Assembly (NCBI RefSeq): GCF_005047635.1
Contig: NZ_SUKC01000001.1
Location: forward strand, 434,001 to 498,000
Reading direction: 5' to 3'
DNA: 64,000 bases
From: Arthrobacter sp. CAU 1506
GTDB taxonomy: Bacteria > Actinomycetota > Actinomycetes > Actinomycetales > Micrococcaceae
The notes beneath the pieces are model-generated. The model was not told the origin of the DNA and did no database searches. It saw only the letters and a list, made by a program, of their open reading frames with translations. Position 1 is the first letter of the stretch. The number at the start of each line of letters is the position of its first letter. The position numbers and the translations under genes are program-made. Positions 7,870-22,436 of this stretch are shown in pieces.

Positions 7870-8745
7870 ATGCAGATTCCTGCTCCATTCGATTACGCGC
7901 GGGCCACTGACGTGGACAACGCGCTTGCCCTGTTGGAACGCCATGGGCCGGACGCCCGGCTGGTGGCCGGCGGGCATAGCCTGCTGCCCATGATGAAACT
8001 GCGGCTGGCCCGGCCGGAGTGGCTGATCGACATCAACGGCCTGGCCGAACTCGACTTCTTGGTGCGCGAAGGGAACGTGTTCAGGGTCGGCGCCCTGACC
8101 CGCCACACCGCGCTCTTCGAGTCGTCCGACGTGGCGCGCTTGTTCCCGATCGTGACCGATGCCGAACAGGTGATTGCCGATCCGGTGGTGCGCAACCGGG
8201 GCACCATCGGCGGCTCGCTCTGCCAGGCAGACCCGGCCGAGGATCTGTCCACCGTCTGCGATGTGCTGCAGGCCGAGGCCGTGATCCGGGGGCCCGCCGG
8301 CGAGCGCACGGTATCGATGGATGAGTTCCACCGCGGCCCGTACGAGACCGCCGTCGGACAGAACGAACTCTTGGTTGAGCTCCGCTTTCCCATCCGTGAC
8401 AGGTCCGGCAGCGCCTACGAAAAGGTCGAGCGCCGGGTGGGCGACTGGGCGGTCGCTGCGGCCGGGGCGGCGGTCGTGCTGGCAGCCGACGGCACCATCG
8501 ACGACGCCTCGGTGGGGCTCACCGCAGTGGGTCTGGACGGCACCGTTTCCGGCATCGGCGACCTGCTGCACGGCCGGCGGCCAGACGAAGACCTATTCAC
8601 CGAGGCGGGCCGGATGGCCGCCGCCGCCTGCGAACCGGTCTCCGACCAGCGCGGCGGAATCGACTACAAGCGGCATCTGGCCGACGAACTGACCCGCCGG
8701 GTGCTACGCAGTGCCTGCGCCCGCGCCGCAGAACAGGAAGGCTGA
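7870..8745 (+). CDS. coxM: Carbon monoxide dehydrogenase, medium FAD subunit
   Basis: 291 residues, the FAD-binding subunit that moves electrons from the [2Fe-2S] subunit to the acceptor. Both FAD pyrophosphate-binding motifs are present: AGGHS (residues 33-37, in AGGHSLLPMMK) and TIGGS (112-116, in NRGTIGGSLCQADP). The C-terminal CODH FAD domain follows. Length matches CoxM of Oligotropha (288). It is first in the M-S-L order that marks form I CO dehydrogenases, 3 nt before coxS. The second motif is TIGGS rather than the classical TIGGD/N, a common variation. Confidence 0.93.
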   Translation: MQIPAPFDYARATDVDNALALLERHGPDARLVAGGHSLLPMMKLRLARPEWLIDINGLAELDFLVREGNVFRVGALTRHTALFESSDVARLFPIVTDAEQVIADPVVRNRGTIGGSLCQADPAEDLSTVCDVLQAEAVIRGPAGERTVSMDEFHRGPYETAVGQNELLVELRFPIRDRSGSAYEKVERRVGDWAVAAAGAAVVLAADGTIDDASVGLTAVGLDGTVSGIGDLLHGRRPDEDLFTEAGRMAAAACEPVSDQRGGIDYKRHLADELTRRVLRSACARAAEQEG

Positions 8746-8748
8746 ACC

Positions 8749-9267
8749 ATGCAGATCAGCATGAGCGTCAACGGCAATGAAGTGACCCGCGACATCGAAC
8801 CGCGCGTGCTGCTGGTCCATTTCATCCGCGAAGAACTGGGCCTGACCGGCACCCACTGGGGCTGCGACACCAGCAACTGCGGCACCTGCGTGGTGTTGAT
8901 GGACGGGCAGCCGGTGAAATCCTGCACCGTGCTGGCGGCAATGGCGGACGGACACGAGATCCGTACCGTCGAAGGACTGGCCAGCAACGGCGCACTGGAT
9001 CCGGTCCAGCAAGGGTTCATGGAGGAGCACGGACTGCAGTGCGGATTCTGCACCCCCGGGATGATGCTCACCGCCCGGGCGCTGCTGGATAAGAACCCGC
9101 ACCCGGACGACGGCGAGATCCGGCAAGCGATCTCCGGCCAGATCTGCCGCTGCACCGGCTACGCCACGATCGTCCGCTCGGTCCACTGGGCGGCGGACCA
9201 CCCCAACGGCGGCGCCGCCGCGTCGGATGCTGCCGGTCCGAGCGACACTGAAGAGGTGACAGCATGA
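8749..9267 (+). CDS. coxS: Carbon monoxide dehydrogenase, small [2Fe-2S] subunit
   Basis: 172 residues with both iron-sulfur clusters' ligands. The plant-type N-terminal cluster uses the Cys in GCDTSNCGTC and the later KSC. The C-terminal four-helix cluster uses LQCGFCTPGM and QICRCTGYAT. It passes electrons from the Mo-Cu site in CoxL to FAD in CoxM. It overlaps coxL by 4 nt (ATGA). The tail after residue 155 is Ala/Gly/Ser-rich and longer than usual. Confidence 0.95.
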   Translation: MQISMSVNGNEVTRDIEPRVLLVHFIREELGLTGTHWGCDTSNCGTCVVLMDGQPVKSCTVLAAMADGHEIRTVEGLASNGALDPVQQGFMEEHGLQCGFCTPGMMLTARALLDKNPHPDDGEIRQAISGQICRCTGYATIVRSVHWAADHPNGGAAASDAAGPSDTEEVTA

Positions 9268-11687
9268 CCACCACCCAGGAGCGTCCGGCGTCGGGACAGG
9301 GAGAAAGCGCCCGTCCGTCCAATCCGGCCGCGGGAGACAAGGACCGCCCGATTGGATACGGCCGGATCCAGCGGAAGGAAGACCCGCGGTTCATCCGCGG
9401 CAAGGGACACTACGTCGACGACATCGTGCTGCCCGGCATGCTGCACGGCGCGATCCTGCGTGCCCCAGTGGCGCACGCCAGGCTGGTCTCGATGGACACA
9501 TCCGAAGCGCTGGCGCACCCCAAGGTCAAGGCCGTCATTACCGGCAAGGATCTGGAAGGCCTGAACCTGGCGTGGGCGCCGACGCTGTCCGCGGACGTGC
9601 AGGCCGTGCTGGTCACGGACAAGGTCCGGTTCCAAGGCCAGGAAGTCGCGTTCGTGGTCGCCGAAGACCGCTACGCGGCCCGCGACGCGCTGGAACTGAT
9701 CGACGTCGAATATGACATCCTGCCGCCGGTCATCGACGCGCGCAAAGCGCTCGACGCCGATGCGCCCGTCATCCGCGACGACCTCGAGGGCCGCACCGAC
9801 AACCACATTTTCGATTGGGAGATGGGTGATGCGGACGAAACCGAGGCCGTGTTCGCCGCGGCCGACGTCGTCGTCGCGCAGGATATGGTCTACCCGCGGG
9901 TCCATCCGGCCCCGATGGAAACCTGCGGCGCGGTGGCGGATTTCGATCCGATCGACGGCGCGCTGACCCTGTATGAGACCACGCAGGCGCCGCACGCCCA
10001 CCGCACCCTGTATGCGATGGTGGCCGGGATTCCCGAGCACAAGATCCGTGTGGTGTCCCCGGACATCGGCGGCGGCTTCGGAAACAAGGTGGGCATCTAC
10101 CCGGGCTACGTCCTCGCCGTCGTCGGGTCCATCGTCACCGGCAAACCGGTCAAGTGGGTGGAGGACCGGTCGGAGAACCTGATGTCCACCTCCTTCGCGC
10201 GGGACTACCTGATGCGCGGGGAAATCGCCGCCACCAAGGACGGCAAGATCCTGGCGCTGCGGACCAATGTGCTGGCCGACCACGGCGCGTTCAACGCCAC
10301 CGCCCAGCCCACCAAGAACCCGGCCGGCTTCTTCAGCATCTTCACCGGCAGCTACGACCTGCAGGCGGCCCATTGCAAAGTCACCGGCGTGTACACGAAC
10401 AAGGCACCGGGCGGCGTGGCCTACGCCTGTTCCTTCCGGGTCACCGAGGCCGTGTACCTGGTGGAACGCATGGTGGACGTGCTGGCCCGGAAACTGGAGA
10501 TGGATCCGGCCGAACTGCGGCTGAAGAACTTCATCCGGCCGGAACAGTTCCCGTACGCCAACAAGACCGGCTGGGAGTACGACTCGGGGAACTACGAACC
10601 TGCGATGCGGCTGTCCATGAAGATGGCCGGCTACGAGGACCTGCGCCGCGAGCAGGCCGAGAAGCGCGAGCGCGGCGAACTGATGGGCATCGGAGTCTCC
10701 TTCTTCACCGAGACCGTCGGCGCCGGCCCGCGCAAGCACTTCGACATCGTTGGCCTGGGCATGGCCGACGGCGCCGAACTGCGGGTCCACCCCACCGGCA
10801 AGGCAGTGGTCCGGCTGTCCGTGCAATCGCAGGGGCAGGGGCACGAGACCACCTTTGCGCAGATCGTGGCCGAAGAGCTGGGCATCCCGCCGGAGGACAT
10901 CGACGTGGTGCACGGCGACACCGACCAGACGCCGTTCGGCCTGGGCACCTACGGCAGCCGCTCCACGCCGGTGAGCGGCGGCGCGGTGGCGCTGGTGGCC
11001 CGCAAGGTCCGGGACAAGGCGAAGTTCATCGCCGCCGCAATGCTCGAAACCCGTCCCGAGGACCTGGAATGGGAGAAAGGCCGCTGGTTCGTGAAGGGCG
11101 ACCCGGGCGCCGGCAAGACGATGGCGGAAATCGCCCTGGGCGCCCACGGCACGGTCGCACTGCCGGAAGGGATCGACGGCAATCTGGACGCCGTGGTCAC
11201 CTATGATCCGCCGAACCTGACGTTCCCGTTCGGCGCCTACATCTGCGTGGTCGACGTCGACCCCGGCACCGGCCGCGTGAAAGTCCGCCGGTTCATTGCG
11301 GTGGACGACTGCGGCACCCGGATCAACCCGATGATCATTGAGGGCCAGATCCACGGCGGCCTGACCGACGGCGTCGGGATGGCGCTGATGGAGATCATCG
11401 AATTCGACGAAGACGGCAACTGCTTGGGCGGCTCCTTCATGGACTACCTGATCCCGACGGCGATGGAAGTTCCGGACTGGGAAACCGGCTTCACCGTCAC
11501 GCCGTCGCCGCACCATCCCATCGGCGCGAAGGGCATCGGCGAATCCGCCACGGTAGGGTCTCCGCCGGCCATCGTCAACGCCGTGGTCGATGCACTGGCG
11601 CCGTTCGGGATTACGCATATGGACATGCCGTGCACCCCCGCCCGCGTCTGGGAGGCCATGCAGGGCCGGCCGAGGCCACCGGTGTGA
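9264..11687 (+). CDS. coxL: Carbon monoxide dehydrogenase, large molybdenum-copper subunit (form I)
   Basis: 807 residues, the length of form I CoxL (809 in Oligotropha). It oxidises CO with water at a Mo-S-Cu site. The form I active-site loop AYxCSFR is present as AYACSFR (residues 386-392), with Cys389 as the predicted copper ligand; form II enzymes have AYRGAGR here. Other cofactor segments: ETTQAPHAHR (Gln near 241), DIGGGFGNK, the MCD-binding SQGQGHETTFAQI and YGSRSTPVSGGA, and GAKGIGESATVG with the catalytic Glu. The residue before the Cys is Ala where most form I sequences have Arg. A polar N-terminal extension of about 25 residues precedes the conserved start. Confidence 0.93.
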   Translation: MTTTQERPASGQGESARPSNPAAGDKDRPIGYGRIQRKEDPRFIRGKGHYVDDIVLPGMLHGAILRAPVAHARLVSMDTSEALAHPKVKAVITGKDLEGLNLAWAPTLSADVQAVLVTDKVRFQGQEVAFVVAEDRYAARDALELIDVEYDILPPVIDARKALDADAPVIRDDLEGRTDNHIFDWEMGDADETEAVFAAADVVVAQDMVYPRVHPAPMETCGAVADFDPIDGALTLYETTQAPHAHRTLYAMVAGIPEHKIRVVSPDIGGGFGNKVGIYPGYVLAVVGSIVTGKPVKWVEDRSENLMSTSFARDYLMRGEIAATKDGKILALRTNVLADHGAFNATAQPTKNPAGFFSIFTGSYDLQAAHCKVTGVYTNKAPGGVAYACSFRVTEAVYLVERMVDVLARKLEMDPAELRLKNFIRPEQFPYANKTGWEYDSGNYEPAMRLSMKMAGYEDLRREQAEKRERGELMGIGVSFFTETVGAGPRKHFDIVGLGMADGAELRVHPTGKAVVRLSVQSQGQGHETTFAQIVAEELGIPPEDIDVVHGDTDQTPFGLGTYGSRSTPVSGGAVALVARKVRDKAKFIAAAMLETRPEDLEWEKGRWFVKGDPGAGKTMAEIALGAHGTVALPEGIDGNLDAVVTYDPPNLTFPFGAYICVVDVDPGTGRVKVRRFIAVDDCGTRINPMIIEGQIHGGLTDGVGMALMEIIEFDEDGNCLGGSFMDYLIPTAMEVPDWETGFTVTPSPHHPIGAKGIGESATVGSPPAIVNAVVDALAPFGITHMDMPCTPARVWEAMQGRPRPPV

Positions 11688-11688
11688 C

Positions 11689-12732
11689 ATGCCGCCGCGT
11701 GAGCTGGCCCTGGCCGCCAGGGCAGATGAACTGAGCAGGCGGCGGGAACCGTACGTCCGCGCCACCGTGGTCCGCGCCCAGCATCCGACCAGCGCCCACG
11801 CCGGCGACACCGCGTTGGTGTTGGCCGGTGGAGCGATCGAAGGGTTCGTCGGCGGGAACTGTGTGGAAGCTTCGGTGCGCGACTACGGGCTGCGGACCTT
11901 GGCCTCCGGCGAACCGCTGCTGCTGCGGGTGATGCCGGGCGAGCCGGTCCGCAACCAGGAGGAGGGTGCGGTCACCGTGGCGAATCCGTGCCTCAGCGGC
12001 GGCTCGGTGGAAATCTTCCTGCAGCCCTACCTGCCGGCCCCACGCGTAGTGGTGGTGGGTTCCGGCCCGATTGCCCAGGCGCTATCCGCCTTGGGGTCGG
12101 TGCTGGGGTTCGAACCCGAACTGGTGGCCGGCAGCGCGGCGGAACCCCGGCCGGATGATGCCGCACTCATCGTCGCCTCGCACGGCAGGGAGGAGGAAAC
12201 AGCCCTGACCGCGGCGCTGCAGGCCTCCGTCCCCTACGTGGCGCTGGTGGCCAGCGGACGCCGAGGCCATGAGGTGCTCGCCTCGCTGGACGTGGACGAG
12301 GAACTGCGGTCCCGGGTGCACTGCCCGGCAGGATTGGCGCTGGGCGCCCGCACACCGGAAGAAACCGCGCTGTCCATCCTGGCCGAGCTGGTTTCTGAAC
12401 GCTCCGCGGCGTCCGCTCCGCCGGCGGCAGGCGGGGTTCGCGCTGGGGCCGCTGAAGCCGCCGAGGAACCGGCGTCGGCCGAAGCGGGAAGCCACGAACC
12501 GGGCGCCGCTGAAGCCGCCGAGGAACCGGCGTCGGACGAAGCGGGGTCGGCGTCGGCTGAAGCCGGATCGGCTGAGCCCGCCACTGCCCTGGATCCGGTC
12601 TGCGGCATGACGGTTCCGGCCATACATGCCACGCTGCACACCGAACACGCCGGAAGGACCATCTACTTCTGCTCCGCCGGCTGCCGGTCCGCGTTCCTCA
12701 AGGATCCGGAGCATTATGCCGTCGCCTCCTGA
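11689..12732 (+). CDS. XdhC/CoxF-like maturation factor with C-terminal YHS metal-binding domain
   Basis: 347 residues, starting at ATG 1 nt after coxL. Residues 1-115 resemble the XdhC/CoxI domain (ALVLAGGAIEGFVGGNCVE; ANPCLSGGSVEIF) and 118-235 the Rossmann XdhC_C domain (VVVVGSGPIAQALS; ALGARTPEETALSIL). Residues 245-298 are an Ala/Glu linker containing a 19-residue direct repeat. Residues 300-345 are a YHS/TRASH-type domain with Cys305 (DPVCGMTV) and Cys328/Cys332 (YFCSAGC). XdhC proteins load sulfurated molybdenum cofactor into hydroxylases. YHS domains bind soft metals, for example in copper P-type ATPases, so copper supply to the Mo-Cu site is a reasonable but unproven reading. Confidence 0.85.
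   Translation: MPPRELALAARADELSRRREPYVRATVVRAQHPTSAHAGDTALVLAGGAIEGFVGGNCVEASVRDYGLRTLASGEPLLLRVMPGEPVRNQEEGAVTVANPCLSGGSVEIFLQPYLPAPRVVVVGSGPIAQALSALGSVLGFEPELVAGSAAEPRPDDAALIVASHGREEETALTAALQASVPYVALVASGRRGHEVLASLDVDEELRSRVHCPAGLALGARTPEETALSILAELVSERSAASAPPAAGGVRAGAAEAAEEPASAEAGSHEPGAAEAAEEPASDEAGSASAEAGSAEPATALDPVCGMTVPAIHATLHTEHAGRTIYFCSAGCRSAFLKDPEHYAVAS
12448..12561 (+). repeat. 57-bp tandem duplication in the XdhC-YHS linker
   Basis: Two copies (12448-12504 and 12505-12561) encode AAEAAEEPAS(A/D)EAGS. The first ~45 bases of each are almost identical, so this is a recent in-frame duplication lengthening the hinge between the XdhC and YHS domains. Confidence 0.8.
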
Positions 12733-13324
12733 ACGCCGGACCGCCGCCCTGGTGCTCGCCGCCGGAGGATCCCGCAGGCTCGGCAGGCCCAAGCAGCTGC
12801 TGCCCTACGGCAACGGTGTGCTGCTTGATGCAGTGCTCGGCACCGCCCGCGCATCCGGGTTTGACCAAATCGTCCTGGCGTTGGGCGGGGCCGCCGAGGC
12901 GGTGTGCCGGTCCGTGAACACCAGCGGCTGCGACGTGGTGGACAACCCTGCGTATGCCGACGGCTGCTCGTCCTCCATTGCGGCGGCCATTCCGGCGCTG
13001 CACCCGCGGACCGAAGCGGTGGTGCTGTTGCTCGGCGACCAGCCGGGAGTGACACCGGCAACGGTGCACACGCTGCTCGCTGCACGGGGCGACGCGCCGC
13101 TGGCGGTGTGCCATTACGACGACGGCGTGGGCCACCCGTTCGCGTTCCACCGCTCGCTGTTCCCACTGCTGGCCCAGTTGCACGGCGACAAGGCGGTGTG
13201 GAAGCTGCTGGAGCAGCGCGCCGCCGACGTGACCGAGGTCGCCGTGCCGGGCCCGGTCCCGCGCGACGTGGACACCGAGGACGACTACCGCCAGGTCTTG
13301 GCCGAGCTGCGGAGCACGCCATGA
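12716..13324 (+). CDS. MobA/MocA-like molybdenum cofactor nucleotidyltransferase
   Basis: 202 residues. The GT-A nucleotidyltransferase signature LVLAAGGSRRLGRPKQLLPY at residues 11-30 and the metal-binding GDQPGVTP are present, as in MocA (CTP:molybdopterin cytidylyltransferase). CO dehydrogenase uses molybdopterin cytosine dinucleotide, which fits this position. The ATG start at 12716, with GGAG 8 nt upstream, overlaps the YHS coding end by 17 nt, so the longer frame upstream is not used. Confidence 0.85.
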   Translation: MPSPPERRTAALVLAAGGSRRLGRPKQLLPYGNGVLLDAVLGTARASGFDQIVLALGGAAEAVCRSVNTSGCDVVDNPAYADGCSSSIAAAIPALHPRTEAVVLLLGDQPGVTPATVHTLLAARGDAPLAVCHYDDGVGHPFAFHRSLFPLLAQLHGDKAVWKLLEQRAADVTEVAVPGPVPRDVDTEDDYRQVLAELRSTP

Positions 13325-14253
13325 CCTCGGCGGCGCGGACCGACGCGCAGGACGGCGGTCGGGCGGAGCTTCGGGAACGCATTCCTGACGTGGAATCGCT
13401 GATTGCCGCACTGGACGCGGTCGACTACGTCGCGGATGCGGGCCTGGCCACCGCCTTGTTCCTGGCCCTACGGCTCCCGCAGCCGATCCTGCTCGAAGGC
13501 GAAGCCGGAGTGGGCAAAACCGAAGCCGCCAAGGCGTTGGCCCAGGTGCTGGACACTCCGCTGTACCGGCTGCAGTGCTACGAAGGCATCGACGCCGGCG
13601 AAGCCCTCTACGAGTGGAACCACCAGCGCCAACTGCTGGGCATCCGGCTGGCCGAGGTCCACCACACCGACCTCGCCGAAACCGACCTTTTCGCCGAGAA
13701 ATATCTGCTGCGCCGGCCGTTGCTGCAGGCCATCGAGCACCCCGGTCCGCGGCCGGCCGTGCTGCTGCTGGACGAGATCGACCGGGCGGACGCCGAGTTC
13801 GAAGCCTTCACCTTTGAACTGCTCGCCGAAGCGGCCGTCAGCGTGCCCGAGCTGGGAACCATCCGGGCCGTGCATCCGCCCATCATCGTCCTCACCTCCA
13901 ACCGGACCCGCGACCTGCACGATGCGCTCACCCGCCGCTGCCTTTACCACTGGATCGACTATCCGGCCCCGGAGAAGATCGCCGAGATCGTGCGGCGCCG
14001 GGTCCCGTCCAGCACCGAATCCATCGCGCTGCAGGCGGCAGCCGCCATCGCCCGGCTGCGGACGGTGGACATGGTCAAACCCCCGGGCATCGCCGAGGCC
14101 ATCGACTGGGTGTCCGCGCTCAGCCTGCTGGGCGCGGACCGGCTGGATGCGGCGAGCGCCGAACGGACCTGGGGCTCCGTGCTCAAGAACCGGGACGACC
14201 TTGAACTCATCGCCGCCCGAGGCGGCGCGTGGCTGGTTGGCAGCCATGACTGA
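13321..14253 (+). CDS. coxD: MoxR-type AAA+ ATPase for CO dehydrogenase maturation
   Basis: 310 residues. Walker A LEGEAGVGKTEAAKA near residue 60, Walker B AVLLLDEIDRADAEFE near 150, sensor 1 IIVLTSNRTRDLHDAL, and the tail of the MoxR family are seen. CoxD of Oligotropha is needed to put sulfur and copper into the Mo site. It overlaps the previous gene as ATGA and the VWA gene by 8 nt, supporting a CoxD-CoxE chaperone pair. Confidence 0.92.
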   Translation: MTSAARTDAQDGGRAELRERIPDVESLIAALDAVDYVADAGLATALFLALRLPQPILLEGEAGVGKTEAAKALAQVLDTPLYRLQCYEGIDAGEALYEWNHQRQLLGIRLAEVHHTDLAETDLFAEKYLLRRPLLQAIEHPGPRPAVLLLDEIDRADAEFEAFTFELLAEAAVSVPELGTIRAVHPPIIVLTSNRTRDLHDALTRRCLYHWIDYPAPEKIAEIVRRRVPSSTESIALQAAAAIARLRTVDMVKPPGIAEAIDWVSALSLLGADRLDAASAERTWGSVLKNRDDLELIAARGGAWLVGSHD

Positions 14254-15526
14254 GCGCGGCTTGGACGGCGCCGTGCCGCCCGCTGATACGGCGGCATTTT
14301 GTGCCAGCCTCACGACGGCATTGCGCCGTAACGGGGTGCCCACCTCGCCGGACCGCGCGGGGCGGCTGGCCGAAGCCCTGCCTCTGCTGCCGCCGGCGGA
14401 CCGGACCACGTTGTACTGGGCCTGCCGCGTGGTGCTGGTGTCCGACCGCGAGCAGCTGCCGGTATTCGACGCCGTGTTCGCGGCGGTCTTCGGTACTGCC
14501 ACCGGCCTTGTCCCGGATCCGGCTGAACACCGCGGCGATCCGCACCACCCGCCGTGGTCCGGCCAAGGCGCCACCGAGCGGCCGACCGGAGCCAGCAGCC
14601 CGTCCGACCACCGCCCGGTGCCGGAAACGGCCCTGCCGCCGGGCATGTTCCCGGGCCGGGACGGCGTCGGCTCCGGCGAGGGTCCGCCACGCGAATCGGT
14701 GCTGTTGATGGCTTCGGGCCAGGAGCGGCTGCACCACACGTCGTTTGCGGGACTGACCGAGGAGGAGACCGCCGTCGTGCGGAATCTGGTCCGCCGCATT
14801 GTGCTCTCCACCCCGGTGCGGGACAGCCGGCGGACCCGCCGATCGGCCCGCAGCAGCTCCCGGCTGGATATCCGCCGCACCGCCCGGACCGCGCGCCGCA
14901 ACGGCCCTGATGCTGCCCGGCTGGTCTTTGCCCAACGGCGGCCAAAGCCACGCCGGTTGGTGCTGCTGTGCGATGTCTCCGGGTCGATGGAGTCCTACAC
15001 CCGGGTCTTCCTCTCGCTGCTGCAGGGCGCGGCTGCCGGGGCCCGGGCGGAAGCCTTCGTCTTTTCCACCCGCCTGACCCGGATCACCCGGCAGTTGGCC
15101 GTCCGCGATCCGGACACCGCGCTGGCCCGCGCCGCCGCCGAGGTGCGGGACTGGGCCGGCGGCACGCGCCTTGCCGAAAGCCTGCACCGGTTCATCGACG
15201 ACTACGGCCGCCAAGGCATGGCCCGCGGCGCCGTGGTGGTGGTCATTTCGGACGGCTGGGCGCAGGACGATCCCGCCCAGGTCGCGGCGCAGATGGAACG
15301 CCTGCGGCGGCTGGCGTATCGGATCATCTGGATCAATCCCCGTAAGGTGGCCGTAGGCTACCAACCGCTGGCCGGCGGCATGGCGGCCGCCCTGCCATAC
15401 TGCGATGCGTTTGTCAGCGGCCACAGCTACTCCGCGTTGGCGGAGGTAGCTGCGGCCATCCGCTCCGACCGCAGCCCGGGCTCCGGACTGCGGACCAACC
15501 AGTTCACCAGGCAAAGGACACGGTAA
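14246..15526 (+). CDS. coxE: VWA-domain protein of CO dehydrogenase maturation
   Basis: 426 residues. The C-terminal half is a von Willebrand factor A domain with a MIDAS site: LLCDVSGSMESYTRVF (DxSxS) near residue 240, a Thr in GGTRLAESLHRF, and VVVVISDGWAQDDP. The N-terminal half is helical and variable, with a Pro-rich stretch near residues 90-150. CoxE-type proteins pair with the MoxR ATPase (CoxD) for metal centre assembly. The start ATG 14246 lies inside the end of coxD. The upstream in-frame extension is only a shadow of coxD. Confidence 0.9.
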   Translation: MTERGLDGAVPPADTAAFCASLTTALRRNGVPTSPDRAGRLAEALPLLPPADRTTLYWACRVVLVSDREQLPVFDAVFAAVFGTATGLVPDPAEHRGDPHHPPWSGQGATERPTGASSPSDHRPVPETALPPGMFPGRDGVGSGEGPPRESVLLMASGQERLHHTSFAGLTEEETAVVRNLVRRIVLSTPVRDSRRTRRSARSSSRLDIRRTARTARRNGPDAARLVFAQRRPKPRRLVLLCDVSGSMESYTRVFLSLLQGAAAGARAEAFVFSTRLTRITRQLAVRDPDTALARAAAEVRDWAGGTRLAESLHRFIDDYGRQGMARGAVVVVISDGWAQDDPAQVAAQMERLRRLAYRIIWINPRKVAVGYQPLAGGMAAALPYCDAFVSGHSYSALAEVAAAIRSDRSPGSGLRTNQFTRQRTR

Positions 15527-16482
15527 TGCAGCTTGAACGCACGTTTTCCGTCACCGCACCGATAGGGACGGTCTGGGACACCCTGATGGACTTCGACCGG
15601 GTGGCCGGGTGCATTCCCGGAGCGCAGATCCTGGAAAAGACCTCCGACGACGAGTACCAGGTCGGCATGAAGGTGAAACTGGGGCCGGTCACCATGCAGT
15701 ACAAAGGCACGTTGTACGTGATCGAGCGCGACGCCGCGGGCCGGCGGGCGCAGCTGCAGGGGAAGGCGCGCGAAACACGGGGACAGGGTGCCGCAGAGGC
15801 AACGGTGACCATGCAGTTGTCCGAATCCGGAGCTGCCACCGAGGGCAGCGTCAACGCCGACCTGACCCTGTCCGGCAAGGCGGCGGCCATGGGCAAGAGC
15901 GTGATCGGCAGCGTCACCGACCAGATGCTGGCCGTGTTCACCAAGAACCTGCAGGAGATGATCTCGGCGCCGGAAACCAACGCGGCCGGCAACAGTGCCG
16001 AGGCAACGCCCGCTTCTGCAGCCGCGGGGTCAACCGCAGCGGGATCTGCCGGGCCTTCATCCACCGCACCTTCAACCGATGCACCTTCGACCGCGTCTTC
16101 GCCGACCGCAGCTTCGTCGGCCGCGGCGTCATCCGCCGGGTCGGCATCTGCGGCACCTTCATCGGCGGCCACGTCGGCCGGCAGGCCTTCGCGCTCGGCG
16201 TCGTCGTCCGCTGCTCAGCCAAAGCCCGGGTCCGCGGCCGGGACGGCGCCGGGCGCACCGCCGTCGTCCTCCTCCCCCGCCCCTGCTGCGGCGCGAGCGG
16301 GACAGCAGGGCGGCAGCAGTATGGACGGCCTCGCCCTGGCCAAGCAAGTGCTCGCCGACCAATTGCGCAGTCCGGGCAAGGTGCTGGGCCTGGTCGTAGT
16401 CGCCGCCGCGGTGGCACACCTGGCCGGGCGCCGGTCCGGACGACGGCAAGCCGTGGCCATACTGCGATCCGGAGGCGTGTAG
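15526..16482 (+). CDS. coxG: CoxG-like SRPBCC protein with long linker and C-terminal membrane helix
   Basis: 318 residues. Residues 1-150 form an SRPBCC/CoxG domain (MQLERTFSVTAPIGTVWDTL; VAGCIPGAQI; LTLSGKAAAMGKSVIGSVTDQM). Residues 155-265 are a low-complexity Ser/Ala/Thr/Pro linker, and KVLGLVVVAAAVAHLAGRR near 284-302 is a membrane anchor. CoxG proteins tether CO dehydrogenase to the membrane, and work on mycobacterial enzymes points to a quinone-binding role. It shares one base with the coxE stop. The linker is unusually long. Confidence 0.88.
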   Translation: MQLERTFSVTAPIGTVWDTLMDFDRVAGCIPGAQILEKTSDDEYQVGMKVKLGPVTMQYKGTLYVIERDAAGRRAQLQGKARETRGQGAAEATVTMQLSESGAATEGSVNADLTLSGKAAAMGKSVIGSVTDQMLAVFTKNLQEMISAPETNAAGNSAEATPASAAAGSTAAGSAGPSSTAPSTDAPSTASSPTAASSAAASSAGSASAAPSSAATSAGRPSRSASSSAAQPKPGSAAGTAPGAPPSSSSPAPAAARAGQQGGSSMDGLALAKQVLADQLRSPGKVLGLVVVAAAVAHLAGRRSGRRQAVAILRSGGV

Positions 16483-16484
16483 CC

Positions 16485-17660
16485 GTGCGCGACGTTTTGG
16501 CTGGGTTGCTGCCCGGCTGGCATGCAGGGGAAACGGCCGGCCTGGCCACCGTGGTGCGGACCTTCAAGTCAGCACCCCGGCCGGCGGGCGCGTCGATGGC
16601 GGTCACCGCCGCCGGGGAAGCCATCGGCTCAGTGTCGGGAGGCTGTGTGGAAGGCGCGGTCTACGAACTGGCCACCGAGGTGACCGCCAGCGGCCAGCCT
16701 ACGCTGGTGCGCTATGGCATTAGCGACGACGAGGCGTTCTCGGTGGGACTGACCTGCGGCGGCATCCTGGACGTCTTCGTGGAGCCGCTCTCCCGCGGGA
16801 CCTTTCCGGGACTCGATGAGGTCGCCGCCGACATCGCCGCCTCCCGCCCGGTGGGCATCGCCACGGTGATTGAGCACCCGGATCCGCAGTGGCTGGGGCG
16901 GCATTTGGTGGTCCGGCCGGATGGCTTCGACGGCGACTTGGGAACCGAGCGCGTCAACCACGCCGTCGCGGACGACACTTTGGGTTTGCTGGCCGCCGGA
17001 CGGAATTCCACGCTGACCTATGGGCCCGACGGGCACCGGCGCGGCGAGGGGATGCGGATCTTCTTCGGCAGCTTCGCGCCCCGGCCCCGGATGCTGGTCT
17101 TTGGCGCCATCGACTTCGCTGCCGCCCTGGCACGGATGGGAAGTTTCCTGGGGTATCAGGTCACTGTCTGTGATGCCCGGCCGGTCTTCGCCACCCGAGC
17201 GCGTTTTCCGGAAGCGGACGAGGTGGTGGTGCAGTGGCCGCACCAGTACCTGACCGAGCAACTCCAGCAGGACCTGCTGGATGAGCGGACGGTCATCTGC
17301 GTGCTGACCCACGACCCGAAGTTCGACGTCCCGCTGCTGGAAGTGGCGCTGCGCGGGAGCAAGACCGCGTACGTGGGGGCAATGGGTTCACGGCGCACCC
17401 ACGACGACCGCCTGCAGCGGCTGCGCGAAGCAGGCCTGAGCAGCGAGGAGCTGTCCCGGTTGCACAGCCCCGTGGGGCTGGACCTCGGGGCGCGAACTCC
17501 GGAGGAAACCGCGGTGTCCATCGCGGCCGAGATCATCGCCAGTCAATGGGGCGGCGGCGGTCAGCCGCTGGGCGAACTCAGCGACCGGATCCACCATGAC
17601 GAGGCGCATGAGCCTCAACCGCAAACCGGACCATCTCTGCAGCCCGGTCGGTCAGCCTGA
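16485..17660 (+). CDS. XdhC/CoxI family molybdoenzyme maturation factor
   Basis: 391 residues starting at GTG 16485. The XdhC N-domain is clear (AVTAAGEAIGSVSGGCVEGAVYE near 40-62; VGLTCGGILDVFVEPL near 88-103), followed by a spacer and the Rossmann C-domain (RMLVFGAIDFAAALARMGSF; YVGAMGSRRTHDDRL; SPVGLDLGARTPEETAVSI). It is a complete paralogue of the XdhC-YHS protein, presumably inserting the cofactor into CoxL. Its last 83 bases overlap the convergent LysR gene and encode a His/Pro/Gln-rich tail. It is the last gene of the operon. Confidence 0.9.
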   Translation: MRDVLAGLLPGWHAGETAGLATVVRTFKSAPRPAGASMAVTAAGEAIGSVSGGCVEGAVYELATEVTASGQPTLVRYGISDDEAFSVGLTCGGILDVFVEPLSRGTFPGLDEVAADIAASRPVGIATVIEHPDPQWLGRHLVVRPDGFDGDLGTERVNHAVADDTLGLLAAGRNSTLTYGPDGHRRGEGMRIFFGSFAPRPRMLVFGAIDFAAALARMGSFLGYQVTVCDARPVFATRARFPEADEVVVQWPHQYLTEQLQQDLLDERTVICVLTHDPKFDVPLLEVALRGSKTAYVGAMGSRRTHDDRLQRLREAGLSSEELSRLHSPVGLDLGARTPEETAVSIAAEIIASQWGGGGQPLGELSDRIHHDEAHEPQPQTGPSLQPGRSA

Positions 17661-18498
17661 TCCCTTCCGGCCAGACGATCTTCACGTCCACCGGGCGGAC
17701 CGCGGGTTCGATCGGCAAGGCGGTGAACGGCCGGCCCTCGTACGTGGCGTCCCCGGCCGGCCGCTGCACCAGCACGGAGTAGCCGATGCCGCGCCCTACC
17801 AGCGAACGGGTCAGTTCGAAGTCCGTGGTGCGGTAGCGGATCTTGGGCACGACCGACGCGTCGCGGAACACGGACATGGTGTGGTGGCTGCTGGGCGGGG
17901 CATCCAGCAGGATCATCGGTTCCTCCGCCAGTTCGGCCAGCGCCACCGCTTCCCGGCTGGCCAACCGGTGGCCCGCCGGCAACAGCGCATAGGCCTGCAT
18001 GGCGTCCAGCTGCACCGACTCCAGCCCGGGCCGCAGGTCCATGTCATACACAATGGCCAAGTCCAGTTCACCGGCGACCAGCTTGTCCTGAACGGCGTCC
18101 TGGGTACCTTCGACGAAATCCAACTGCACTTTCGGGTGCTCGGCGGCAAAGAACTCGAGCAGCCCGGGCAGGATGGTCGGCGCCAGGGTCAGGTAACAGC
18201 CCACCACCAGCGGCCCCGCCAGCTCTCCCCCACCGCTGCTGGTGCTGAGCTCCAGTTCCTCCGCCTCGCGCAGGAAAGCCGCCGCCCGGGCATGCAACTG
18301 CCGGCCCGCCGGGGTAAGGGTCACTCCGTGTGCCTTGCGGCGGACCGTCAACTGCGTGCCGAAAATCCGTTCCAGCTCTTTCACGGCGGCGGCCACCGCG
18401 GTCTGCGAAACACGCAGTTCATCAGCGGCGGCGGCAATAGTTCCGTTCTCCGCTACCGCGACGAAGTACGCCAGCTGCCGCAACGTATAGCGGACCAC
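17578..18498 (-). CDS. LysR-family regulator divergent from the P450 operon
   Basis: 306 residues. Helix-turn-helix at residues 4-62 (YTLRQLAYFVAVAENGTIAAAA; LRVSQTAVAAAVKELERI) and a LysR sensor domain from about residue 90 (GPLVVGCYLTLAPTILPGLLEF). It is a clear paralogue of the LysR at 22437-23351 (shared layout TLRQL, CVRRKA/TVRRKA, GY(A/S)LL/V). It is divergent from the P450 gene across 189 bp and convergent with, and overlapping, the end of the cox operon. It probably activates the P450 genes. Confidence 0.9.
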   Translation of the reverse strand: MVRYTLRQLAYFVAVAENGTIAAAADELRVSQTAVAAAVKELERIFGTQLTVRRKAHGVTLTPAGRQLHARAAAFLREAEELELSTSSGGGELAGPLVVGCYLTLAPTILPGLLEFFAAEHPKVQLDFVEGTQDAVQDKLVAGELDLAIVYDMDLRPGLESVQLDAMQAYALLPAGHRLASREAVALAELAEEPMILLDAPPSSHHTMSVFRDASVVPKIRYRTTDFELTRSLVGRGIGYSVLVQRPAGDATYEGRPFTALPIEPAVRPVDVKIVWPEGIRLTDRAAEMVRFAVEAHAPRHGGSGR

Positions 18499-18540
18499 TC
18501 AAACCTCCAGCCGTGCCAAGCGAGAAACCACGCCTTTTCA

Positions 18541-18595
18541 GTGGATATTTCCACAAAATATGAACTTTACCGGCGGATATGTCTGCTGTCACACT
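18541..18595 (+). promoter_or_regulatory. P450 operon promoter with conserved 33-nt LysR-associated block
   Basis: A GTGGA-N4-TCCAC dyad (18541-18554) precedes TGAACTTTACCGG (18561-18573), a 14-nt gap and GTCACA (18588-18593). TTTACC (18566-18571) and CACACT (18590-18595), 18 bp apart, can serve as -35 and -10. The same block with the same spacing occurs before the MFS gene at 23389-23421. Confidence 0.55.
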
Positions 18596-18687
18596 CATTC
18601 GAGACACACCTCACGCCGACGGCGAGGGGTAAGCCGAACAGCCACCGGGGCATATGTCCCGGTCGCCACACATCAGGAGACCTGAGC

Positions 18688-19881
18688 ATGACCGCCGCCG
18701 CTACCGACGCCCGCCCGGTTCCCACCGCGGATTGGGTCACCATCCCGGACCTGTACCGGAACCCGTACCCGATCTACCAGAAGTTGCGCGCCGAGTCCCC
18801 GGTGCACTGGGTGCCCGCCGTCAACCGGTACATGGTCACCAGCTATCAGGCCTGCCACGTGATCGAACAGGACCAGGAGCGCTTTTCCGCCGACGAGACC
18901 AACTCGCTGATGAAGCGGGCCATGGGACACTCGATGCTGCGCAAGGACGACCCGGAACACGACGTCGACCGGAAGTCCTACGGCAACGTGCTGCGGCCCA
19001 AGGCCATCAAGGAACACTGGAACGCCATTTTCCAGGCCAACAGCGACAAGTACCTGGCGCAGTTGAAGGCCGCCGGGCCGGGCTCCGACTTCATCTGGGA
19101 CTACGCCGCCCCCTACGCCGCGGAAAACCTGCGCCTGATCATGGGCTTCCACAACGCCAGCCAGGAAGACATGCAGCGCTGGTCGCAGACCATGATTGAC
19201 GGCACCGGCAACTACGCCGACGATCCCGAGGTCTGGGCCAAGTCCGAACAGTCCTACAACGAAGTCGACGACGCGATCGACGAGATCCTGCCCTACCTGC
19301 GCAAGAACCCTGATGCCAGCCTGCTCTCCGGCATGACGTCGATGCCGATCCCGCTCGAAGCCATCCGGGCGAACATGAAAATGACCATCGGCGGAGGGCT
19401 GAACGAACCGCGCGACGTCCTGGGCACCACGGTGTGGGCCCTGCTGGACAACCCGGACCAGCTGGCCCAGGTGCTGGCCGACGAGACACTGTACGCGCGG
19501 GCGTTCGAAGAATCCGTCCGCTGGGTGGCCCCGATCGGCATGTACCCGCGGGAGACCACCGCCGACACCGTGCTGGAAGGCGTGCAGTTGCCGGCCGGCG
19601 CCCGGCTCGGCATCGTCGTGGGCGCTGCCAACCGCGATCCGGCGGTCTTCGAAGACCCCGAGTCGTTCAACATCAACCGGGAGAAGAAGCCACACCTGGC
19701 CTTCGGCGGCGGCAACCACTTCTGCGCCGGCGCCTGGGTGGCCCGGGCCTCGGTGGCGCAGATCGCCATGCCGCAGGTCTTCCGCGAACTGCCGAACCTC
19801 CGCCTGGACCCGGACAACACTCCGGTAGACGCCGGTTGGGTCTTCCGCGGTATGACCAAAATGCCGGTGCTCTGGGGCTAA
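18688..19881 (+). CDS. Cytochrome P450 with atypical I-helix
   Basis: 397 residues, soluble bacterial class I P450. ExxR is EESVR at residues 274-278, and the heme loop is FGGGNHFCAG with thiolate Cys346. The I-helix reads GGGLNEPRD (235-243). In the alignment with P450cam (GGLDT) the acid-alcohol pair Asp-Thr is replaced by Asn239-Glu240, a feature seen in only some families such as the GcoA-like aryl-O-demethylases (QEP). The start ATG 18688 has AGGAGA 8 nt upstream. Electron partners follow directly. The substrate is unknown; an aryl ether or aromatic acid would fit the neighbouring carrier. Confidence 0.93.
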   Translation: MTAAATDARPVPTADWVTIPDLYRNPYPIYQKLRAESPVHWVPAVNRYMVTSYQACHVIEQDQERFSADETNSLMKRAMGHSMLRKDDPEHDVDRKSYGNVLRPKAIKEHWNAIFQANSDKYLAQLKAAGPGSDFIWDYAAPYAAENLRLIMGFHNASQEDMQRWSQTMIDGTGNYADDPEVWAKSEQSYNEVDDAIDEILPYLRKNPDASLLSGMTSMPIPLEAIRANMKMTIGGGLNEPRDVLGTTVWALLDNPDQLAQVLADETLYARAFEESVRWVAPIGMYPRETTADTVLEGVQLPAGARLGIVVGAANRDPAVFEDPESFNINREKKPHLAFGGGNHFCAGAWVARASVAQIAMPQVFRELPNLRLDPDNTPVDAGWVFRGMTKMPVLWG

Positions 19882-19945
19882 ACCCCTCAGTACTTAGTCA
19901 TCCCAACTCTCCACCACCACCTCCACAGCAAGGAAAGACTCCCCC

Positions 19946-20272
19946 ATGGCAAAGATCAGCTTCCACCACTCCGACGGCAACGTTGACGTCCTGGACGTGG
20001 ACCCCGGCACGTCACTGATGCGGGCCGCGGTCACCAACGGCGTGGACGGCATCGTCGGCGAATGCGGCGGCCAGGCCATGTGCGCCACCTGCCACGTCTA
20101 CGTCCGGCCCGAGTACCTCGACGGCCTGCCGGACATCGGCGACGACGAGGAAGAGATGCTCGAGTGCACCGCTGGCCCCCGCGACGAGACCCGCAGCCGG
20201 CTCGGCTGCCAGATCACGGTGGGCGATGGACTGGAGCAGATCGAAGTGGACGTCCCCGACGACCAGATCTAG
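19946..20272 (+). CDS. [2Fe-2S] ferredoxin 1 (adrenodoxin/putidaredoxin type)
   Basis: 108 residues, electron carrier for the P450. Cluster ligands are Cys40, Cys46, Cys49 and Cys88 in the order C-x5-C-x2-C-xn-C (ECGGQAMCATCHVYV; SRLGCQI). It carries AGGAAAG upstream of ATG 19946, 64 bp after the P450. It is about two-thirds identical to the second ferredoxin, so the pair is a tandem duplication. Confidence 0.93.
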   Translation: MAKISFHHSDGNVDVLDVDPGTSLMRAAVTNGVDGIVGECGGQAMCATCHVYVRPEYLDGLPDIGDDEEEMLECTAGPRDETRSRLGCQITVGDGLEQIEVDVPDDQI

Positions 20273-20297
20273 GCTGGGCGCGGACCCGGCGGTTCGG

Positions 20298-20390
20298 GGA
20301 CAGTGCGGCCCGGAACAGGGCGCTGCCGGGTCGTGCGGCTCTGCGGAACCGGCGGACCCAGGACAGTGCGCTGCCGGGTCGTGCGGCGCT
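20298..20390. repeat. Imperfect direct repeat between the two ferredoxin genes
   Basis: The 318-bp gap 20273-20590 holds no gene. It is very GC-rich and contains two exact copies of the 19-mer GCGCTGCCGGGTCGTGCGG (20320-20338 and 20368-20386, 48 bp apart), each preceded by GGACAGTGC. The rest of the gap shows nothing beyond the Shine-Dalgarno of the next gene. Confidence 0.6.
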
Positions 20391-20590
20391 GCCGACCCGG
20401 CACCGCGCCGGGGGCAGGGCGGCCGCCGCGGCGCATCGCAGCCGGCGCGGCCCAGGGGTGGCGCGGCCCAGCGCGTTCCGACCATCGTGAGCGAGCCGCA
20501 ACCTAAGCTGACCAAAGCCGCCGCAGCTACCGCCAGCCAGCCAGCCGTACAGCACCTACGATCAAGGTTCAGCCCAAAAGGAGAAGAATC

Positions 20591-20917
20591 TTGGCGAATA
20601 TCACCTACCACCACGCCAAAGGGAACGTCGACAGCCTCGACGCCGAGCCCGGCATGACGGTCATGATGGCTGCGGTGATCCACGGTGTAGACGGCATCAT
20701 CGGTGAATGCGGCGGCCAGGCCATCTGCGCCACCTGCCACGTCTACGTCCGCGACGAATACCTTGACGGACTGCCCGCCATCAGTGGCGCCGAAGAAGAA
20801 ATGCTTGAAACCACCGTCTCTCCCCGCAACCCGGCACGCAGCCGCCTCGGCTGCCAGCTCACGGCCGGAGACCACTTCAACACCATCGAAGTCGACATTC
20901 CCGACGAACAGGACTGA
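20591..20917 (+). CDS. [2Fe-2S] ferredoxin 2 (adrenodoxin/putidaredoxin type)
   Basis: 108 residues, paralogue of ferredoxin 1 with the same Cys spacing (ECGGQAICATCHVYV; SRLGCQL). The start is TTG 20591, chosen because AAGGAGAAG lies about 7 nt upstream and the next residues (ANITYHHAKGNVDSLD) align with ferredoxin 1. Two ferredoxins for one P450 may give alternative electron routes, or one may serve another oxygenase. Confidence 0.92.
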   Translation: MANITYHHAKGNVDSLDAEPGMTVMMAAVIHGVDGIIGECGGQAICATCHVYVRDEYLDGLPAISGAEEEMLETTVSPRNPARSRLGCQLTAGDHFNTIEVDIPDEQD

Positions 20918-20964
20918 TCCGGCCACCGCGGCCTGGCTCCCACCCCCTTACCGAAAGGCCCTCC

Positions 20965-22305
20965 ATGAACGCGATAACTACTCCTGACAACGTGGTTGTT
21001 GTTGGCAACGGCCAGGCCGGCATCCAGCTGGTGGATTCGCTGCGCAAGGAAGGCTACACCGGCGCCATCACCCTGATCGGTGAGGAAACCCACCACCCGT
21101 ACCAGCGCCCGCCGTTGTCCAAGGACTACCTTGCCGCGGGCAAGGACCCGGTCCCGCTGCCACTGCGCCCGGAAAAGTTCTTCACCACCCACGACGTCGA
21201 TGCCCGCCTCGGCGTGCGCGTCACCTCGATCGACCGCACCGCCCGGACCGCCACCCTCGACGACGGCACCACCTTGGCCTATTCCACCCTGGTACTGGCC
21301 ACCGGCGCCGCCAACCGCGAACTCGCCGTGCCCGGCGCCGACCTGGCCGGAATCCACGGCCTGCGCACCCTCACCGATGCCCAAGCCCTGCACGCCCGCC
21401 TCGACACGGTCCGCTCCGTCGTCGTGATCGGTGCCGGCTTCATCGGCCTGGAATTCGCCGCCGCCGCCCGCGCCCGCGGCCTGGACGTCACCGTCCTGGA
21501 ATACGCCGACCGGCCGATGGGCCGCGCCCTGACCCCGGTGATGAGCGGTTTCTTCGCCGACGCCCACGGGCGTCTCGGCGTGACCCTGCGGCTGGGCGAA
21601 GGCATCGCCTCGTTCGACGGCGACAACGGGCACGTCACCGCCGCGGTGTCCACTACCGGGCACCGCTACCCCACGGACCTGGTCCTGGTTGGCGTCGGCG
21701 TCACCCCGCGCACCGAACTCGCCGCCGCCGCCGGCCTGGACGTGGACAACGGCATCGTGGTGGACGGCAGCCTGCGCACCAGCGACCCGAACATCTACGC
21801 CCTCGGCGACTGCGCGTCCTTCCCCAACACCCACGCCGGCACCCGCACCCGGCTCGAATCCGTGCAGAACGCCACCGACCAGGCCCGTCACGCCGCCGCA
21901 GCTATCCTTGCCAGTCGGCCTGGAAAAGAGCCTGGTAGCGGCACCGGCGTCGAGTCCGGAAGCATGCCCGGCAGTGAGCCCGCGGGCGGCACCGGCGCCG
22001 AGCTTGGGGGCTACGCCGACCTGCCTTGGTTCTGGTCCAACCAAGGACCCTTGCGCCTGCAGATCGCCGGCCTGGTGGCCCCCGGCGACCAGACCGTGCT
22101 CCGCGGCAACCCGGCCGAGGAGAAGTTCTCCGTCTTCTGCTTCCGCAACGGAACCCTGACGGCCGTCGAGTCCGTCAACCAACCCGCCGACCACATGGCC
22201 GCCCGCCGCCTCCTCGCCGCCGGCCTCCCCCTCACCCCGGAACAAGCCGCCGACCCGGACTTCGATCTCAAGGCCTACTCCAAACAACAACCCGCCACCG
22301 TCTAA
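20965..22305 (+). CDS. FAD-dependent ferredoxin reductase (putidaredoxin/rhodocoxin reductase type)
   Basis: 446 residues. FAD motif VVVGNGQAGIQLVDSL near residues 10-25, NAD motif VVVIGAGFIGLEFAAAARARG near 152, and the second FAD motif SDPNIYALGDCASFPN near 275. The C-terminal reductase domain starts at DLPWFWSNQGPLRLQIAG. It transfers electrons from NAD(P)H to the two ferredoxins. A low-complexity Gly/Ser/Glu/Pro insert of about 30 residues sits between the FAD and C-terminal domains (residues 313-348), absent from classical members. Confidence 0.93.
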   Translation: MNAITTPDNVVVVGNGQAGIQLVDSLRKEGYTGAITLIGEETHHPYQRPPLSKDYLAAGKDPVPLPLRPEKFFTTHDVDARLGVRVTSIDRTARTATLDDGTTLAYSTLVLATGAANRELAVPGADLAGIHGLRTLTDAQALHARLDTVRSVVVIGAGFIGLEFAAAARARGLDVTVLEYADRPMGRALTPVMSGFFADAHGRLGVTLRLGEGIASFDGDNGHVTAAVSTTGHRYPTDLVLVGVGVTPRTELAAAAGLDVDNGIVVDGSLRTSDPNIYALGDCASFPNTHAGTRTRLESVQNATDQARHAAAAILASRPGKEPGSGTGVESGSMPGSEPAGGTGAELGGYADLPWFWSNQGPLRLQIAGLVAPGDQTVLRGNPAEEKFSVFCFRNGTLTAVESVNQPADHMAARRLLAAGLPLTPEQAADPDFDLKAYSKQQPATV

Positions 22306-22436
22306 CGCCGCCGCTGGAGCGTCTCGGTCTAGCCGCCATCATCATTCCGGCTCTCGCAGTCGCTGCTGCCTCGGCCACCGTGGCCGCTAGGCCCCGGCAG
22401 CTAAGCGCTGCCGCCGGATTACTGCGCGGGCGTGCT

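Follow-up and report, generated by a model that had tools for sequence, protein, structure and literature searches.

The active site of aerobic carbon monoxide (CO) dehydrogenase, in which molybdenum, sulfur and copper are joined, has been called unique, and its assembly has been studied in mutants of Oligotropha (Afipia) carboxidovorans OM5 (PMC4240915). According to that paper, CoxF is genetically required for the insertion of copper and not of molybdenum: the enzyme of a coxF mutant keeps molybdenum and sulfane sulfur and lacks copper. The coxE mutant and the coxF mutant each lose both proteins, and hence the genetics of OM5 cannot separate CoxE from CoxF in copper handling. A second point of reference is the adenylyl cyclase of Mycobacterium phlei, whose YHS domain makes the enzyme responsive to copper: according to PMC4626032, Cu2+ activates it and no other transition metal tried together with magnesium does. 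Here we analyse a CoxF-type XdhC protein with a C-terminal YHS domain, encoded on the + strand at 11689..12732 of a stretch of 64,000 nucleotides of Arthrobacter sp. CAU 1506 (contig NZ_SUKC01000001.1, positions 434,001 to 498,000; hereafter the window). Judging from sequence comparisons, we think it likely that this protein is a maturation factor specific to form I, i.e. copper-containing, CO dehydrogenase, that it has the ancestral two-part form of its family, and that its YHS domain would bind copper and pass it on to Mo-SH and to the cysteine in the active site of the large subunit, CoxL. The initial annotation had seen in the fusion a possible copper delivery, a step whose donor was not clear; on the latter point it had been overtaken, since CoxF itself was already proposed in print as the donor (PMC4240915).

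The gene starts with the ATG at 11689, ends with the TGA at 12730-12732 and encodes 347 residues. All its parts lie on the + strand. An XdhC_CoxI domain (Pfam PF02625, E 1.2e-14; residues 17-81, 11737..11931) contains C58 and is followed by the motif NPCLSGGS with C101 (residues 99-106, 11983..12006) and by a short XdhC_C Rossmann domain (PF13478, E 1.8e-21; residues 120-234, 12046..12390), whose model matches 2we8. A low-complexity linker rich in Ala, Glu and Pro (about residues 248-294, 12430..12570), inside which Tandem Repeats Finder reports 3.2 copies of a 27-base repeat (12454-12542), leads to the YHS domain (PF04945; residues 302-344, 12592..12720) with D302, C305, C328 and C332. The YHS match has an E-value of 2.6e-10 and 40.6 bits against a curated gathering cut-off of 30.3, and all three Pfam domains score above their curated cut-offs. 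The join of an XdhC module with a YHS domain, previously described from CGM and CxxxC cysteines, is thus borne out, these cysteines being C305 and C328/C332. The source genome (4.24 Mb) has no second YHS match at E<=0.001. The gene begins 1 nt past the stop of coxL (9264..11687, +), whose product scores 1384 bits against the aerobic CO dehydrogenase model TIGR02416 (cut-off 991) and carries the loop VAYACSFR, with a cysteine in the active-site loop. We take AYACSFR to be the form I motif of CoxL and its cysteine to hold the copper. By both the model score and the active-site cysteine, the cox genes of the window are classified as a form I (copper-molybdenum) CO dehydrogenase operon.

Trees and motifs identify the window protein as an orthologue of OM5 CoxF. 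The OM5 cox cluster encodes two XdhC proteins, and the tblastn match of the window protein is the first of them, between CoxE and CoxG, with 280 residues; we take it to be CoxF because gene order and size fit (PMC4240915). An IQ-TREE phylogeny of 74 XdhC domains, computed without the YHS columns and with the cut CoxF rows L161, L162 and L185, like most others, left outside, separates the window protein, OM5 CoxF and the YHS bearers from CoxI-like and form II XdhC proteins. This branch has support 93/90 and recurs in 94% of 200 bootstrap trees; it was not starred. A FastTree phylogeny of 230 domains, from which the 20 of 250 XdhC open reading frames (ORFs) shorter than 180 residues were excluded (10 of the 36 form II ORFs among them), permits a split into 143 CoxF and 87 canonical rows with support 92. 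This split was chosen as the one with the largest YHS-free set, a choice that favours the reported YHS count. Inside the 87, the best-supported canonical clade (82 rows, support 99) has no YHS row and includes the second XdhC of the window. The five rows in between (L165, L200, L203, L216 and L217) were put on the canonical side because their motif is the canonical CGG, without the insertion described below; 15 of the 143 CoxF rows are without YHS, which would become 20 of 148 if these five were counted as CoxF. They come from form I loci of Myxococcota, SAR324 and Gammaproteobacteria, form deep branches on the canonical side and share the motif MPCGG. At L165 this protein is the sole XdhC seen, and L200, L203, L216 and L217 have a CoxF with YHS besides. 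The MPCGG proteins could be a third type of XdhC.

The division between CoxF and canonical XdhC is supported independently by an insertion that follows it. CoxF proteins have two additional residues after the conserved C101, giving a signature that we define here as CxSxG and that the window protein carries. The first inserted column is filled in 141 of the 143 CoxF rows versus none of the 87 canonical ones, the second in all 143 (with Ser in 139) versus a single canonical row. The putative copper motif published for OM5 CoxF, MCPSHGTM, occupies the same place (PMC4240915). The remaining OM5 motifs were considered as general CoxF features and rejected, along with the copper motif in the form MCPxxGTM, on counts of 1-3 rows in 143: the phytase motif occurs once as RHGxRxP and three times in the looser form RHGxR, RGD occurs twice in the aligned position (30 times anywhere), and MCPxxGTM occurs twice. 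Inspecting the window CoxF by eye, we saw neither the phytase motif nor RGD. With such counts, these motifs probably do not belong to copper delivery in general. A set of 78 aligned CoxF homologues, chosen as YHS-bearing by our own profile, has XdhC_CoxI and XdhC_C throughout (78/78) and Pfam YHS at E<=0.001 in 72.

We then asked how widespread the fusion is among form I loci. A scan that started from CoxL, with one genome per species and blind to YHS, confirmed 585 of 590 candidate stretches; the best 80 form I loci (L141-L220) were used, and more exist beyond these. They cover 14 named phyla, including Chloroflexota, Bacteroidota, Acidobacteriota, Gemmatimonadota, Bacillota, Deinococcota, Pseudomonadota, Actinomycetota and the archaeal Thermoplasmatota and Nitrososphaerota, plus five loci without an assigned phylum; judging from titles, none is alphaproteobacterial. 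A YHS-bearing CoxF is found in 68 of the 80, and in 68 of the 70 with an uncut CoxF. Five loci have a CoxF without YHS, three because of a contig end and two genuinely (Streptosporangiaceae), and no CoxF was seen in seven stretches, five of which are contigs of 4.8-10.9 kb. The idea of a rare fusion peculiar to this genome was thus rejected: YHS on CoxF is the norm of the family. A survey of cox operons had been proposed earlier to look for the fusion; it does find it, but as a general trait of form I loci rather than as something special to this operon.

Other samples complete the picture. A CoxF-like region is present in 82 of 396 actinobacterial genomes. Sixty actinobacterial regions chosen via CoxF similarity (L034-L093), and so biased towards the window protein in a way that the L141-L220 count is not, include 55 with YHS, two of the other five being cut at contig ends; four further CoxF-similar places comprise two with YHS and two cut at a contig end. 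Nine of twelve alphaproteobacterial plasmid records were read, and none of the nine has YHS in CoxF. Searches of plasmids by tblastn with the window protein proved misleading, as they never covered core and YHS together; the CoxF proteins of Thermomicrobium, Natronorubrum and Paraburkholderia, when read, do carry YHS. In all 128 YHS ORFs collected from the stretches, the YHS is preceded by at least 180 residues of matched XdhC and linker. Two possible substitutes in YHS-less operons were also considered and rejected. A separate YHS gene was found in none of the stretches examined, and a tail rich in Cys or His occurs, among uncut YHS-less rows, only in L046 (CCGHG) and L055 (HCAAHGH). Some CoxF proteins are more elaborate than that of the window: three have a tandem double YHS (L047:8804-10180, L172:12347-13579 and L175:12380-13579), and a haloarchaeal one (L137:8932-10071) has an SCCGGG stretch in its linker.

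If the fusion serves copper, it should be missing where the enzyme has none. The control consisted of 40 regions around CoxL relatives of 42-48% identity from the same actinobacterial genome set, of which 38 are form II stretches (loop GAGR), as L118 also has a form I CoxL and L103 is without a clear motif. The 36 XdhC ORFs in these 38 actinobacterial stretches have neither YHS (0) nor CxSxG (0), and all 26 that were long enough for the tree fall inside the 82-row canonical clade. The initial annotation would have been contradicted by a YHS domain equally common in non-copper operons; this is not what we find (68/70 form I CoxF versus 0/36 form II XdhC, the latter in Actinomycetota). Fisher's test returns p 5.5e-22, which counts relatives as independent and which we do not use as evidence. 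CoxE is present in 26 and CoxD in 27 of the 38 form II stretches, and among the maturation genes compared CoxF alone is confined to the copper enzyme. This distribution bears on a rival account in which the three YHS cysteines pass on sulfur, destined for the Mo=S ligand, and not copper. As members of the same hydroxylase family, form II enzymes would also need the sulfido ligand, and the form II stretches examined have neither YHS nor CoxF. XdhC proteins have been linked to the sulfurated molybdenum cofactor, and a persulfide could ride on the invariant cysteines, but the enzyme of the OM5 coxF mutant keeps its sulfane sulfur and is without copper (PMC4240915). We regard a role in sulfur relay as highly improbable.

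The YHS domain by itself is used more broadly. It matches in at least 127 of the 396 actinobacterial genomes, and in 40 regions around listed matches away from CoxF, XdhC was found in none (0/40). These regions mostly concern frames of 175-660 residues, most short stand-alone proteins and most long frames being outside the sample. The hosts are copper-type P-ATPases and permease-like, ABC-transporter-like, cyclase-like and monooxygenase-like proteins; we assigned these names by eye from known motifs, and they should be taken as presumptive. Three more matches lie within a CopA-like copper ATPase or upstream of CopA-like genes, again named by eye. Two of them, the small stand-alone YHS proteins of L228 and L229, have their genes upstream of genes for CopA-like ATPases, and at L228 a CsoR-like gene stands between the two (both by eye); they are candidate cytosolic copper carriers, judging by this neighbourhood. 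Three YHS-only ORFs that scored as XdhC at 54-68 bits were rejected, since the iterated XdhC profile includes YHS columns. The XdhC-YHS combination thus appears, in the sets examined, as a feature of form I CO dehydrogenase.

The metal site is strongly conserved. Five cysteines never vary in the 78 CoxF-YHS sequences: the core contributes C58 and C101, the YHS domain C305, C328 and C332. Among 131 CoxF YHS domains, Cys1 is kept in 128, Cys2 in 128 and Cys3 in 131; the first ligand position holds Asp 112 times and Asn 17 times. The spacing of D302-C305-C328-C332 in the window protein, 3/23/4, is that of D178-C181-C204-C208 in the M. phlei cyclase (PMC4626032). In the AlphaFold2 model of the window CoxF, core and YHS are confident, with a predicted local distance difference test (pLDDT) by block mostly above 90, and residues 248-294 are mostly below 50, so the placement of core and YHS relative to each other is undefined. 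The core matches best the XdhC structures 2we8 and 3on5. The YHS model (mean pLDDT 89) has as its best VIA match 3rng_A, a toluene/o-xylene monooxygenase (Z 6.6, root-mean-square deviation 3.5, 53 aligned), followed by 60S/50S ribosomal chains taken as L24e (Z 3.5-4.6); a Z below 8 is weak by itself. It has no match in BFVD at E<=0.001. The sequence profile also reaches phenol hydroxylase (1.6e-7) and, weakly, L24e (0.02-0.08). By model and ligands, we assign the window domain to the YHS/TRASH fold, with the Asp and three Cys set of copper-type YHS domains.

These fold matches, to L24e and a monooxygenase YHS, are what one would also expect if the domain were a structural knuckle of the zinc type, or a docking module for the form I apo-enzyme, with the core C101 or another protein carrying copper. 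The TRASH fold of ribosomal L24e binds Cd via four Cys, as reported in PMC4626032, a CoxF lacking YHS is enough in OM5 and is found in the other alphaproteobacteria read and in several actinobacteria, and every CoxF row, YHS-bearing or not, has a residue in the inserted Ser column of its core motif. Yet one ligand of the CoxF site is Asp or Asn and not the fourth Cys of L24e, the YHS-XdhC fusion keeps to the copper enzyme in the sets examined, and only Cu2+, of the transition metals tried with magnesium, activated the M. phlei YHS enzyme. Altogether a purely structural or docking role seems unlikely to us. The same cyclase suggests another alternative, as its C-terminal YHS on a linker works as a copper switch (PMC4626032): the YHS of CoxF could be a sensor that turns the XdhC core on when copper is available, the inserted copper coming from elsewhere. 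Loss of the domain with retention of the enzyme is what regulation would predict. A long, predicted disordered linker suits a rigid switch less well, however, and the copper-free enzyme of the OM5 coxF mutant, whose CoxF is of the YHS-less kind, points to supply (PMC4240915). A sensor strikes us as improbable.

Copper delivery by CoxF, the reading we prefer, can be laid out in steps. The XdhC core, with C58 and C101, would dock on apo-CO dehydrogenase already carrying sulfurated molybdenum. The tethered YHS would take one copper ion via C305, C328 and C332, with D302, and copper would then pass, directly or via C101, to Mo-SH and the active-site cysteine of CoxL; the cysteine of CxSxG is the likely acceptor or hand-over site. 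We infer that the metal is copper and not another, that the YHS donates rather than senses, and that transfer takes this route. The copper step is given to CoxF and not to CoxE because CoxE goes with both enzyme forms and CoxF with the copper form only; the YHS would capture or carry the ion on its flexible tether.

Several observations weigh against this reading. The form II control spans Actinomycetota only. YHS domains also occur in proteins without a known copper link, so their presence alone is no proof of copper, and in crystals the YHS/TRASH folds of other proteins hold Cd or are metal-free (PMC4626032). The CoxF of OM5, needed for copper, has no YHS, and five uncut losses or groups of losses (alphaproteobacteria, Streptosporangiaceae, L046, L052 and L055) keep the copper-ligand cysteine of CoxL. 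No CoxF was found at the form I loci L165 and L215, with 10 kb downstream covered, and no XdhC within 15-19 kb of the second form I CoxL copies L230 and L231 (55-56% identity, genomes G092 and G189). The YHS domains of L136 (Deinococcus), L201 (Meiothermus) and L207 lack Cys1 (Ser/Asp) and have Cys2 shifted, beside a form I CoxL; at L136:8947-10008, L201:13026-14180 and L207:5960-6955 the second and third YHS cysteines form CxxC, which makes an altered site or a different metal a candidate explanation. Lastly, the association between YHS and the enzyme is one inherited fusion and not many independent ones. The copper-delivery idea thus stands in part: the YHS tracks the copper enzyme and its ligands match those of a copper-responsive YHS, but OM5 CoxF manages without it. 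As YHS-less CoxF supports copper insertion in OM5, some lineages at least can do without the domain, and where it is kept it probably raises efficiency or selectivity at scarce copper. Being standard on CoxF in the bacterial and archaeal genomes surveyed and missing in the relatives of the model organism, it is a strong candidate, and one easy to test, for handling the copper of CO dehydrogenase.

The history of the domain is best read on the tree. With the canonical rows as root, YHS bearers dominate both main CoxF branches and the YHS-less rows are nested: the alphaproteobacteria beside YHS-bearing beta- and gammaproteobacteria (support 90/81), and Streptosporangiaceae, L052, L055 and L046 among YHS-bearing actinobacteria. 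YHS presence needs seven changes, two of which (L084 and L090) are contig ends. Since YHS-less rows are nested within YHS bearers, the simplest account of the tree is a single early gain, with YHS ancestral to CoxF, and about five losses. One may then wonder whether the fusion is mere inertia, an old join passed on with the operon and having little or no present function, given that one ancestral fusion underlies the association and that several clades lost the YHS. Against this, about 128 of 131 domains, from many phyla and from archaea, retain all three cysteines, whereas the linker ranges from about 4 to 161 residues, a contrast that argues for selection on the site; we give inertia very little credence. 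A bolder version of copper delivery makes CoxF-YHS a two-site copper insertase, with capture at the YHS and relay by C101 to Mo-SH, and the founding architecture of all aerobic copper-molybdenum CO dehydrogenases. We hold it tentatively, at somewhat short of even chances. If true, the lineage of the maturation model organism lost the capture domain, and the phytase and integrin (RGD) steps put forward in print may apply to that lineage alone or be mistaken.

The operon around the fusion gene has all its genes on the + strand, in the order coxM-coxS-coxL-coxF-MobA-like-CoxD-CoxE-CoxG-second XdhC. The assignment of a CO dehydrogenase operon, made earlier, is confirmed by the form I CoxL described above and by its neighbours coxM for the flavin adenine dinucleotide (FAD) subunit (7870..8745) and coxS for the iron-sulfur subunit (8749..9267), both from Pfam. 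Downstream, coxF overlaps by 17 nt a gene (ATG 12716; 12716..13324) for a MobA/MocA-like nucleotidyltransferase of the molybdenum cofactor (PF12804; TIGR03310 under its cut-off), followed by CoxD, a MoxR-type AAA ATPase (13321..14253, Pfam), the VWA protein CoxE (14246..15526, PF05762), CoxG (15526..16482, PF06240) and the second XdhC, canonical, CoxI-like and without YHS (16485..17660 by Pfam and tree, assuming a GTG start). Beside the operon, a seemingly complete class I P450 system with doubled ferredoxin occupies 17581-23351. Its parts are a cytochrome P450 gene at 18688-19881, consecutive ferredoxin-like genes at 19946-20272 and 20591-20917 (the second without a Pfam match at 1e-5 and named from its likeness to the first) and an FAD-dependent reductase (20965-22305), and the neighbourhood also has two LysR regulators.

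CoxF was already known; what appears to be new is that the YHS form is the norm, that the model lineage has lost it, and that the two enzyme forms give an argument for CoxF over CoxE. Among the Creative Commons licensed full texts of PubMed Central (PMC), to which our search was confined, no paper naming YHS together with XdhC or with CO dehydrogenase was found; domain databases may list the architecture. Other literature on copper donors or CO dehydrogenase maturation, including passages of PMC10434068, had nothing on CoxF or on YHS in CO dehydrogenase. The site formed by D302, C305, C328 and C332 is concrete, can be mutated, is missing from the model organism and is present in most form I loci surveyed. 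Organisms with a form I CO dehydrogenase and this YHS site include scavengers of atmospheric CO. A CoxF with YHS could help to make active CO dehydrogenase in foreign hosts, and the YHS tail or the CxSxG insertion could serve as a genome-level marker for the maturation of the copper-type enzyme.

Four known systems frame the window protein. The closest is OM5 CoxF (pHCG3), which shares XdhC_CoxI and XdhC_C, a form I operon, the side of the tree and CxSxG; it stops after the XdhC core, whereas the window CoxF goes on with linker and YHS. Canonical XdhC/CoxI proteins, such as the Rv0376c homologue of Mycobacterium smegmatis (2WE7/2WE8), have the same two XdhC domains and provide the best fold match. 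Unlike CoxF, they, including the second XdhC of the window, have the motif C-GG without the two-residue insertion, and they accompany form I and form II operons alike. The YHS of the M. phlei adenylyl cyclase is, like that of the window CoxF, C-terminal on a linker, with Asp and three Cys at identical spacing; there it is fused to a cyclase as a Cu2+-dependent enzyme switch, whereas here it belongs to a cofactor-assembly protein. Finally, the YHS domains in or beside CopA-type copper ATPases share family and ligand pattern with that of the window, but they belong to copper export and not to cofactor maturation, and their copper binding was still putative as of PMC4626032.
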